From Rapana venosa (taxonomy: Eukaryota > Mollusca > Gastropoda > Neogastropoda > Muricidae): a stretch of DNA of 64,000 bases. The stretch's first letter is position 1; each line of letters starts with the position of its first letter. The stretch covers positions 27,905,552-27,969,551 of the forward strand of contig CM054153.1 of NCBI GenBank assembly GCA_028751875.1, in the 5' to 3' direction. The position numbers were made by a program, and so were the translations under genes. Of the stretch, positions 7,233 to 13,200 are shown in pieces. The notes under the pieces are model-generated. The model was not told where the DNA came from. It did no database searches and was given only the letters and a program-made list of their open reading frames with translations.

Positions 7233-10200
7233 AAATATCTTCCGCCTCAGAAGTCAGTTTTAAAAGTCAGCTGCTATCATATTTACTGGAAAAGACAGGA
7301 ATAGCTTTTATACTAGCATCTTTCTCAAGAAATTCAGTCGCTGACAGTAGTTATTTCATAACACTGAAATATTTTTTTGTGATTGGGTGACATTTTAAGG
7401 GAAGAACTCTTGCCAAGAGAAATGGTTATCTACCAGCATGAGTAGTTTCCTCTTAAGTGGATGCTGTTTTGGTTTTTAGGGTTTTGGGTTTATTTTTTTG
7501 AAAATCTTATTTCTGCTATAACTGGGCATATAACATGTCACTCTATGACAGCAAGACTGCTGTAGTTGTAATGAATGTTGTGATCTACAGTACAGCTCTA
7601 AAGAGTTATTGCTATTTATCTCATTACATGCATGCAGTGTCTTTAATGATTTTGACCAAAGTTTATGGTCAGAATGAGTGACTTGTCAGTTCAGGTTCAT
7701 GTGATACCTTGCTTGAGTGATACGGCTTTTACAAAATGTTAGCTTCATGTCTGTTTTGATGTTGTTGTTTGTTTGGTTTTTTTCCTTCTTCTGAATGTCT
7801 TCAGTGGAAGACTCATGATGGGATGACTATGGAGTTGATACAACGTGTGTTTATTGAATGTTTAGTAGTTGTCATTAGAAATGTACATGATAAATCAAAT
7901 TTATCACTGAAGTTATGAATGTTTTTCTTCCCTTCCTACATTCTGCTATGTGGATAGTATGGAAGCCATCAGGCTCTTAGGGTTTGGTGGTGGTGAGAAG
8001 AAAATGACTGTAGTCTTTAGAATATGTAAATATTGCTCATTTTGGAGAAAGTACTGCTTATGGTTACTGAGATACTGTGCTTACATTTAATACAGTTGAA
8101 TGAAACAGAAGATAAAATGAAGTGTTAGAGAATGTATGTGCATCTAGGTGCAAGTCACCAGTGTAAAGTTATGGTAGTATGACTTGAATGATGTATCTTC
8201 ATCGAGGGTTGGCTGTAATCTTGTGTGGCAGGCTGGAAACTGCCAGAAGAAAAGAAAGAAAGAAAAACATGAAAAGGTAAGAGAGAGTGGTACTTAGTAA
8301 AAGTAGGCACTCCTGTAGGAGGGCTCTGACAAGCATAGATAGCAAAAGAAACATATTGGTTTGATAAGATCATTTTGATTATACTGGCAGGTCTTAAAGT
8401 TTTATGTGCTGTTTAAAAAAAGAAAATGTACATGAACAACAAACCTGAGGTCGTCAGATAACATCAATAAGGAAAGTTTGGGAGAGAGGGGGAAAGAAAA
8501 AGGGGGGGGGGGGGTATTTGAAGATCAAAGTTAATTAACTGAGGTGTATTTTCTGATAATTAAAGCCCCAGATAGATGTTAATGTGGTTTATCAAACTGA
8601 GTGAGGTAGAAATGTTTTTAGGGTAAGAAATGTTACTGAAAGGGAGATAGGGTGAGGGAGGGAAAAGAAGTGTATGTCCAGGGTAGTTGCTGTGACACTG
8701 TAGCCTTATGTTTTTTGTGTGTGTGCATGGGGTTTGACAGACAAACCAGAGTGACAGCCAGCAGAGTCGTGACAGCTTTTCTCAAGGCCGCAAGCGCTCA
8801 GCAGAAAAACGCGACCCCTCGTCCCACAACCACCAGGCCAAGAAACCCCGGCGAGAGGAAAGGCAGCGTGATGGGTGAGCAGTGTGCTGGCTTGGTGCCA
8901 TTTGTGTCCCATTTGCCTCTGTCTTTTTTTTCCTGTCCCATATGTGGCATGCTTGATAAGTGTTTCTGTTGATATTATGTGCCGGGCAAGCGTGTTTTGT
9001 GTCGGCTCTTGAACACCTTCATATATGTACATGATTGAACACTTTTCTGGAGGACACTGGGTCATTAAAATTCCACCCTTTTATTTTTGGTTTTGTTTGT
9101 TTTTTTGCCTTTGCATTTTGGGGGGGACGGATCATCGTCCAAATGATCTGTCCTGGCTATGTTAGGGACGTAATTACTCCCTCCTTGCTTATGTTTGAGA
9201 AAACTGATTTAATCTCATCTCCAAGTTTCTGTTTAGTCTCCTGACGAAGAAAGAAAGGCCGTGTTTGAATTTGCGAGATGTCCTTTCACGTGGATTTCCT
9301 ACGAGGATTTTGCATTCCCCATGGAAAGGTAAGCCCACAGCTGTCTGTAGCTTGAATGAAAGACCCAGTCTGTGTCGGTATCAGAGAGGTGTTCAATCGG
9401 AGCCGGCTGTGTGTGTTGTGTTTGTGTTGTGGCAGCTCGGCTCTGTTTGAACATTGTCTCTGTTTCTCTGTTCCACCGTCTTTTCTTCTCTGTCTCCCAA
9501 CTTTTCGTTTTGTTTTTTCCCCTCCCTTTGACATTTTTTTCTGTTGGTTTTTTGTCGTTTCACGTTTTGTGTGATTTATTTACAGAAAAATGTTGTTTAG
9601 ATGCTTGTGTTTGTCAAAGTTTACTTTCGATGCGAGTCATTTTTGATGTCTTTATTGATTGATCTTTAAATCTTATCATGATTATGAGTGAAGAGAAAAT
9701 AAATGTTGAATTACATTTTTTTATGATTGTATCTGGATGTTAAGCTGAAGAACATTCCTCATTCTGTATTGTCATAAAGGGACACTTGATACAGTACTGT
9801 AAGAAGGTATGCAAAAGAAGGTAAGATAACAGTGGGGAAACTATTGTAAATGTAATTTTACACAAAAAAAGTTGCTCTATTTATTAATTATTTTTATTAT
9901 TATTTATCTCTTTTGAAAGAGTTGAATTGATTGTGTCTTCGTATTGTAAATGAGTAAATGAAACCTACAAAAAATTGTTTTCTTCTGCAGTCTGTCCCAT
10001 TTTGACATTTAATTTCCTGCATCTGTGAAAGCAGTTGATCCAGAAAGCTGTATTTTTGTTGTTTGTTTTGTTTGAACAGGAGCCCCCAGAATGGGCGCAG
10101 CTACGATGTAGCGACCTTGAAGCGGGCAATGAAGAAGGTGTACTTCAAAAAGATGAAACTGCGGGAGGCTGCCCGCATCTACAACATCCCGGCCAGCACC

Positions 10201-13200
10201 CTGCAGCAGAAACTGAAGGCCCTGTACAAGAAACAGGAGAGGAGAGCCCAGCAAGAAGCTGCCCTGGCCCAGGAAAACGCTGACAGGTCACCTGCCCGCA
10301 AACGACGCTCCAGTCAGAGTGGAGAGGAATCCGAGCAGCGTGACAGTGAAGATCAGGAAAGAGAGAAGGAGGAGGAAGAGGAGGAAGAAGCAGAGGAGGA
10401 GGAGAAGGAAGAGAACGAGGAGGAAGAGGAAAAGGGGGAGATGGAAGAGGTCAAGGGTGATGACAGCGACTTGGAGATTAAACAGGAGGAGGAGGAGGAG
10501 GAGACAATGCAAGAGAGTGACAGCAAGGAGGCAGCAGAAGATGAGGACGAAGAACCAGAGCAGCCGGTGCAGGAGGACGAAGAGGGGGACGTTAAAGTGG
10601 AGGAGGAGGAGGAAGAAGAAGAACCTGCCCAGCAGTTCTCGGATTCAGAACCATCGAGACAGGAGTTAGAGGAGGAAAGGAGGAAGAAGAAGTGGAAGTT
10701 GTGACCAAACCGACCAGGAGAGCACCATCCAGGCCGAAAGCAAGGGAAGCGAAGGATAAAACCAGGACTAGAAAGTGTGCTGTGAAATCCCCTCCAGCGT
10801 CAGTGCAGACTCCTGCCAAGACTCCAAAACGATCTCCAAAGAGGACAGCTAAACAGTCGCCATCTAGGACACCAAAACAATCTCCTTCTAGGACAGCCAA
10901 GCAGTCTCCGTCTAGGACAGCCAAACGGTCCCCCACTAGAACAGCTAAACGGTCCCCCACTAGGACAGCTAAACGGTCCCCCACTAGGACAGCCAAACGG
11001 TCCCCCTCTAGAACACCCAAACAATCGCCATCCAGAACATCCAAACAGTCACCATCATGGACAGCTAAGCTGTCTCCTTGTAGAACCACCAAGCAGTCTC
11101 CATCATGGTCAGCTAAGCAGTCGCCCTGTGGGGCAGTGAAAGAATCCCCCTCCAGAACGCCCAAACAGTCCCCTGTGCAGACTCCTCCCACATTGTCACC
11201 CCTTAGGACTAGCATGCAGTCGCCCCCAAGTGTGTCAGAGACTACGTGCAGTGTTGTGATAGGGAAACCACGGATATTTTCTGCCAGCAGGGTAAAATCA
11301 CGTGTGCTGGAGAGTAAAGTTAAAACAAGTTGTGATATAATCAAATCAACTTTGAACAAGGGAAAGTTAAAAACCAAACCTCCTGATAAAAAATCTAAAC
11401 CTAAGGAACCCGTAAGTACAGCTTGGGACTCCGAATTAACACCGGAGGAGGAGGAAGAACTGATAAACCAAGCCCAGAATTTTAAAGCCCAAGGGTTGCC
11501 CTTGACCATGGATATATTTTTGGATTTTGCTCAAAACATTTTGAATGAGAACCCTTATAGAATGCGTAGTTTTCCTGATAACCGTCCAAACAAAGAGTGG
11601 TACCAATTGTTTGTGAAGTCCCATCCAATGATCACTGCCCCCATACTTACACCTAGACAAACGGCGCGCCAGATTTCTTGTGAGGAGGAACGCAAAAGAA
11701 AAGCTGAAGCAGAAGCTGTGAAAAGCCGCGGTTCCTCCAGCAAGAAGAGCAAAACTAAACAGTCCACCAGCAAGGGCAGGCGGAGAAGTAAAAGTTCACG
11801 CTCAGAGTCGGGTCACTCTGAGGTAGAGGACTCGGCAAACGCCGGTACAACCACCGAAGATGAGGAGATTGACACCAACATTTGTTCAATGTGCCAGGCA
11901 GAGTACAATGATTTACCAGACGAGTGGATCGGCTGTTCGTCTTGTGAACGGTGGTTTCATAAAATTTGCATTCAGATAGATGTGACAGGCTACACAGACA
12001 AAGAGATTGAAGCGTTGGATTTTATCTGTGTGTTTTGTGGCTGTGGGGTCACCTGATGCCAGGAGTCGGTAGCTAGTGGTGATTCTTGTGATATCCCTCA
12101 CAACTCCAACCCTACTGGAGTCCTGCGTGATGAGGCAGCGTGCGATAATCCGTGTGGAGACCTCGTCATGCGAGAGGCTGTTGTGATTCTGGAGAGGATG
12201 GTGATGTTGGAGAGTTAACGATCCTGTAGGCACAACACGCTCACGGACAGGGCATGTAGAAGGCGTAGGTGAGGCTACACCAGTATCAGAGGAAAGTGAG
12301 GGGGTGGTACGGAGCCTTGCTGAAAGTCAGCTTAGTGAAACCGACTCAGGGACCTTGTTTTGTACACAGTTTGGAGGTGGTTTTGCATCAACAACTGTCT
12401 CCATCGGCATTTTAACATAAACTACAACAAAATAGAAAACAAACCAACCAGAATGATCAAGTGTTTGATTGTAAAGCTCTGAGCTAGCATTGGTTAAATA
12501 TGAAAATCAGTTATGTAGGTTAAGGTTAAGTCGAGACCACATGAAAAGTAAACAGACACTGGTAGTGAATAGATGCGTTTTAATTGTGAATATGCGTGTC
12601 TGCTGTGGACAGTATCAGTATACTGTTGTCTATTGATTGTGATACTATTCTACCAGTAAATAAGCAGACCTGCCTACCCGTACGATTTTATCGTATTTTT
12701 ACGATTTTTTTTTACCCCAAATTCAAAAATGCGAAGTTACTGATAAAAATATGATTTTGACAACCACCAAAAAAACCAGAAAAACAACAACAAAAAATGG
12801 GAGAAAAAAGTGAAACTGCAGCAAAGGGTTTACAGGATGCAACTCTTCCATGCCCATTACTTCCCTTGTCTGAAGTCGCGAGTCATCACTCACAGATTAA
12901 CTTTTATCTGTTGAAAGAAGGGGGTGGGGGGCCACATGGAAAGTATCCACTATGAATATGGGATTTCAAGAAAGGGATGCCCAGCAGCTCTATAATATAT
13001 GCAAGGCAGATGGGTGAAGAGGGTTACTAGGAAGAGGGGGTGGGGAACTTTCACACTGCCATGTGTGTGGTCAGAGTGCAAGGGGTCCCCTATTTTTATG
13101 ACTAGAAACCCTACAGCAACTGGTATTGCCCTGTCAAAGCAATGTTTATATAGCAGGCCTACCAGCTTCTCCCTTCTTTTTCATGGACAGCCCCCCTCCC

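Follow-up and report, generated by a model that had tools for sequence, protein, structure and literature searches.

The genomic stretch analyzed here, called the window, covers 64 kb (27,905,552 to 27,969,551) of contig CM054153.1 of the gastropod Rapana venosa (assembly size, 2.28 Gb), and all coordinates are positions within it unless a locus is named. On the forward strand, probably within an intron of CHD1, it holds a nested gene that encodes two helix-turn-helix (HTH) domains and a PHD finger. It is likely that this is an old single-copy host gene derived from a transposase of the pogo superfamily that comprised a psq HTH, a CENP-B HTH, a DDE nuclease and a C-terminal PHD finger, and that the DDE part has been lost. 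From its sequence, we read the product as a domesticated, nuclease-less, pogo-derived chromatin- or DNA-binding protein.

Domains of the nested gene

Reading from its 5′ end, the large exon encodes a psq HTH, then an acidic tract and an array of Ser-Pro (SP) repeats, followed by the CENP-B/Tc5-type HTH and, last, a C4HC3 PHD finger, which is intact (Table 1). Pfam profile searches matched the first HTH, of the psq/CENP-B_N type, to HTH_psq (PF05225; 27.1 bits for a cut-off of 20.4), and the PHD finger to PF00628 (31.3 bits for a cut-off of 24). The second HTH is of the CENP-B/Tc5 type, despite a match below the cut-off of the corresponding profile, PF03221. The C4HC3 zinc ligands form invariant columns in an alignment of six sequences, the cysteines and the histidine of the window PHD all being intact. 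The nearest solved relatives of this finger are the PHDs of MTF2 (E = 6e-6) and Pygopus (E = 3e-5), and we take its segment WIGCSSCERWFH to be akin to those of methyl-lysine readers. The analysis confirmed the three domains that a sequence-only reading had proposed on the CHD1 strand, as well as the Glu-rich tract and SP array that it had placed between the two HTHs, which are separated by approximately 400 residues.

The same reading had reported that the nuclease is missing, and it was right. Profile searches found no DDE nuclease in the window protein or in the six relatives described below, and with two pogo transposases as tblastn queries against the window, their CENP-B part matched and nothing else did. 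The profile search also listed no Pfam family for a C-terminal CENP-B dimerization domain.

Relatives, copy number, and pogo elements of the same genome

A search of 5.8 billion proteins, with 7992 candidates scored, returned seven matches, of which six are real (P0001 to P0006). Their best local identities are 72, 63, 60, 68, 51, and 52%, respectively, with query coverage of 44 to 80%. Profile scans detected the PHD in five of the six, psq in three, and PF03221 in four at E < 0.5 (best, 9e-4). In P0002 and P0006, the CENP-B part is flanked by psq on one side and PHD on the other, and the remaining four are incomplete at one end: P0001 and P0003 start past psq, P0005 starts inside it, and P0004 stops before the PHD. 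The window PHD is identical to those of five of the six relatives at 44/58 to 53/58 positions (76 to 91%), and the CENP-B part to those of all six at 48/80 to 64/84. Identities range from 10/30 to 37/58 for the basic linker and from 1/6 to 29/45 for the SP array, which is longest in the window gene; for the basic block they are 39/50, 36/50, 28/50, and 34/50 in P0001 to P0004, 14/46 in P0005, and 8/35 in P0006. Conservation of the PHD and CENP-B parts exceeds that of most linkers, chiefly in distant relatives, with a clear contrast in P0005 and P0006 only. The existence of relatives elsewhere suggests that the gene has been conserved. The C terminus of P0001 continues beyond the usual ...GVT end of the family through a W at the TGA of the window, as if the TGA had been translated as Trp in the prediction.

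The genome was searched at the protein level with the 285 residues of the CENP-B-PHD part, and the only match was the gene itself (124 of 124 candidates scored). This part is single copy at the sensitivity used, the psq part not having been searched separately; the near-identical copies that the sequence-only reading had named as the sign of a live transposon are absent for it. A PF05225 search of the genome gave 16 matches (42 of 42 candidates scored), with the window psq not among the rows. At the DNA level, segment 9237-12700 retrieved itself and, from the 40 candidates scored out of 622, at least 126 matches; these all fell within positions 1085 to 1454 of the query, which is the acidic tract, and nothing else in 9237-12659 matched DNA elsewhere among the candidates scored. 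Segment 11180-13000 retrieved itself and at least 39 matches, all from 12660 onward (40 of 414 candidates scored), where a dispersed repeat sets in roughly 600 bases past the stop codon.

No convincing terminal inverted repeat was found around the gene in 8876-14000, target duplications not having been looked for. This region contains 21 inverted pairs of 16 to 29 nucleotides, mostly A/T-rich or CA-type, one of which flanks the gene (9079-9107 and 12768-12796; 29 nucleotides, 76%, A/T-rich). This imperfect repeat and the pogo-type HTHs would suit a pogo element that is still active or was inserted recently, but such an origin is extremely improbable: the right arm of the repeat falls in the dispersed repeat, the DDE is missing, the CENP-B-PHD part is single copy, and the relatives are just 51 to 72% identical.

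Six pogo copies of the same genome were compared with the window gene (L-numbers denote loci; L022 and L028 are one locus). L036 and L037 match psq, CENP-B, DDE, and PHD in that order on one strand, with psq at 1062-1202 and PHD at 3430-3597 in L036. L028 carries CENP-B, DDE, and PHD, with a basic stretch between its DDE_1 (100 bits) and the finger at the terminus (27.6 bits, above the cut-off). When this PHD was used as the query, the genome yielded five matches at four loci. L029 has psq, CENP-B, and a partial DDE, with an 18-residue PHD piece on the opposite strand. L010 and L030, chosen on account of a psq match, comprise psq, CENP-B, and DDE, with no PHD in the stretch examined. A colinear C-terminal PHD is thus present in three of the six copies. 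Long alignments among the six show 91 to 98% identity, with 97.9% over 4.5 kb between L036 and L037. In the pogo copies, psq lies in a separate upstream frame, preceded by repeats of approximately 80 bases.

Because the frame-broken copies L036 and L037 hold all four modules, the domain mixture of the window gene is best read as this layout minus the nuclease and not as a new assembly. The gene shares with the pogo elements (L036, L037, L028, and L010) the order psq, CENP-B/Tc5 HTH, and C-terminal PHD, and with L028 the basic stretch ahead of the PHD. In contrast to the copies, which carry DDE_1, are dispersed at high identity, and in several cases are broken, it has no DDE, a single-copy CENP-B-PHD part, and its HTHs far apart. 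The two HTHs are only some 20 residues apart in L011, where the CENP-B-like part was recognized by weak BLAST only. Since positions 8001-14000 have no DNA similarity to the six copies except short matches from approximately 12540, past the gene, the window gene is not a recent pogo copy. The sequence-only reading had stated that pogo transposases use psq or CENP-B, which is wrong: the frame-broken copies L036 and L037 carry both, together with DDE and PHD, and Fot-type transposases can carry both according to PMC7386202.

Two further loci hold related frames. Positions 1333-3920 of L011 contain another pogo-type open reading frame (ORF; psq, DDE_1), followed by a second long frame that presumably resembles an OTU protease. 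An open frame with two psq domains, which we take to resemble E93/MBLK-1, is found at 199-2205 of L001. We know of no Pipsqueak-family factor (E93/MBLK-1, LCoR, psq, Dan) with both a CENP-B HTH and a PHD.

Several observations weigh against the derivation of a domesticated gene from a four-part pogo transposase. The sequence link between the window PHD and pogo is weak. Used as a query against the genome, this PHD had seven matches at E = 10 or lower, of which only itself was below 0.01, and the PHDs in or beside pogo copies (L019, a fragment, E = 0.07; L022, E = 1.12) scored no better than those outside pogo (L018, E = 0.03; L020, E = 0.3). These scores, like the resemblance to MTF2 and Pygopus, would also fit a host gene built by domain shuffling, in which a host PHD was joined to pogo-type HTHs, instead of deletion from one transposase. 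We consider this unlikely, as the module order, the basic stretch before the PHD, and the C-terminal position of the finger match the pogo elements of this genome. Nor was any four-part pogo copy seen to be intact: L036 is interrupted by two stops in its psq and by one in its PHD, and L037 is disrupted, matching in broken pieces. PF03221 reached 12.4 bits in the window protein, under its cut-off of 22.2, and was also under it in P0006. The basic block at 11262-11411 is as conserved in P0001 as the domains (39/50, with 64/84 for CENP-B). Because P0005 and P0006 have no real SP array (0 and 2 SP), the array is confined to part of the family. Finally, a one-base frame change interrupts the gene and, if real and fixed, would break the full protein, and neither AATAAA nor ATTAAA occurs in the 1.7 kb past the stop codon. 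Overall, the domestication of a pogo-derived gene without DDE is supported by the single-copy CENP-B-PHD part, the lack of a convincing terminal inverted repeat, and six relatives devoid of DDE, and the interpretation given by the sequence-only reading is partly supported.

Gene model and CHD1 surroundings

Among the four GT[AG]AG donors in 8801-10079, that at 9329 alone could link the psq frame, via the 10079/10080 acceptor, with an ATG no more than 400 bases away. The ATG at 9321, followed by the intron at 9329-10079, is thus the likeliest start of the nested gene. The predicted N terminus, ME-R-SPQNGRSYDVATL..., agrees with the KPENGKNY sequence of P0006, which also begins with ME. The 5′ untranslated region of exon 1 may reach upstream to approximately 9237 or further.

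A one-base offset within the purine-rich acidic tract divides the ORF into two frames, both of which are aligned by the continuous P0001, P0002, and P0004. It may be an assembly error or a real lesion. If real, the gene might be a domesticated but now decaying pseudogene in this species, as a one-base shift in a conserved frame that is uninterrupted elsewhere and the missing AATAAA/ATTAAA would allow. We find this rather improbable: it is a single lesion in about 660 codons with the 451 codons beyond it open, the PHD has kept its cysteines, its histidine, and its high identity to the relatives, and the affected site is a purine repeat, in which assembly errors would be frequent.

The location of the gene in a CHD1 intron, as claimed by the sequence-only reading, is probable. 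It is favored by an exon with a PF13907 match and by splice-compatible exons on the same strand, including that at 5013-5118, which we take to be homologous to CHD1. The exon at 8741-8874 had no PDB match, and the PDB matches of that at 24097-24307 were all to unrelated proteins at E = 0.12 or worse. Unspliced read-through of the 8741 exon meets an immediate stop (RQRDG, then TGA), and because this stop follows directly, CHD1 may conceivably end there, with the nested gene just downstream. CHD1 might also use the psq-PHD exon as an alternative terminal exon at its 3′ end, yielding a CHD1-psq-CENP-B-PHD fusion through splicing (a host-transposase fusion). The strand is the same, and the exon end at 8874 and the acceptor at 10080 are both in phase 2 (chance, 1/3), but a fitting start exon of its own is available to the gene (ATG 9321), and P0006 has its own Met and a leader unlike the CHD1 exon. 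We regard such a fusion as very doubtful.

Elsewhere in the window, 46316-47110 (+) holds a LINE-like reverse transcriptase fragment (PF00078, 44.8 bits), and 38187-38268 (-) a tRNA gene or tRNA-derived repeat (Rfam RF00005, 62.3 bits).

Table 1. Positions of the nested gene, its parts, and its surroundings in the window
Feature	Position	Strand	Basis or remarks
CHD1 exon, CHD1-like C-terminal domain	4383..4561	+	PF13907, 47.8 bits over 4311-4559; splice borders
CHD1 exon (HLWKFVANFTEAD...)	5013..5118	+	Splice borders, phase
Probable CHD1 exon upstream of nested gene	8741..8874	+	Splice sites; ends in phase 2
Probable coding start, exon 1	9321..9328	+	ATG GAA AG; phase 2 donor AAG/GTAAGC at 9329
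Inferred intron of nested gene	9329..10079	+	Donor GTAAGC, T-rich tract, AACAG acceptor ending at 10079
Large coding exon	10080..12056	+	ORFs 10039-10704 and 10596-12056; stop TGA 12054-12056
HTH_psq	10114..10218	+	Pfam stretch; conserved block 10090-10233
Glu-rich acidic tract	10300..10690	+	Translation; GAG-type repeats
Frame-change zone, one base	10660..10700	+	Two overlapping frames
SP array	10779..11234	+	18 SP, 14 [ST]Px[KR]; 24-base units
Conserved basic block (GKPRIFSASR...KPKEP)	11262..11411	+	Alignment to relatives
CENP-B/Tc5-type HTH	11427..11678	+	Predicted helices approximately 11442-11621
Basic/Ser linker, 62 residues, where a transposase would hold DDE	11679..11864	+	No DDE there
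C4HC3 PHD finger	11865..12038	+	PF00628, 31.3 bits
Dispersed repeat, outside gene	12660..13000		At least 39 further matches at 77-84%; far end not sought
Probable last CHD1 exon	24097..24307	+	Acceptor, compatible phase 2, own stop

Possible function and place among pogo-derived genes

In the history that we favor, the DDE nuclease was probably lost from the four-part ancestral transposase, and the linker between the HTHs would have expanded into an acidic, SP-rich tether. In the mechanism that we consider most likely, the two HTHs would contact DNA separately or at widely spaced sites, while the PHD, a putative reader, would recognize the tail of histone H3. Basic chromatin proteins would be touched by the acidic tract, and the SPxR units would be multisite proline-directed phosphorylation sites that may in addition contact DNA when unphosphorylated. 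The sum of these parts would be a tunable DNA and chromatin adaptor rather than an enzyme. A bolder proposal, which is a long shot, is that of a conserved, nuclease-less pogo-derived family in which a two-part DNA-binding module of the CENP-B type, split by a fast-evolving acidic and SP tether, is combined with a PHD that reads histones, and whose exon may also splice onto CHD1. If that splicing took place, it would create a remodeler-transposase fusion in this species.

CENPB, TIGD, JRK, POGK, and POGZ of vertebrates resemble the window gene in having domesticated pogo DNA-binding domains with the CENP-B HTH fold. All vertebrate domesticated pogo genes surveyed in PMC7386202 keep DDE, a hallmark that the window gene lacks; "PHD" occurs 0 times in the main text of that paper and is also absent from the main text of PMC7325037. 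Many transposon-derived HTH-Psq and CENPB factors are described in molluscs in PMC10027918. They come from the same sort of source elements and probably the same phylum as the window gene, but they are handled there as separate sets, and the main text does not mention PHD. In the open-licence literature, judged mostly from listings, we recognized no paper that describes the layout of the window gene.

This layout can be accounted for by an existing four-part transposon family, and the loss of DDE with the other modules kept would make the gene a good test case. The family took a route opposite to that of the vertebrate genes surveyed in PMC7386202: it lost the nuclease but retained the two DNA-binding halves as well as the PHD of an apparent four-part transposase. 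Because frame-broken four-module pogo copies, 91 to 98% alike, remain in the same genome, a before-and-after comparison is possible, which may bear on the role of the PHD for the transposon and on what survives once the enzyme goes.

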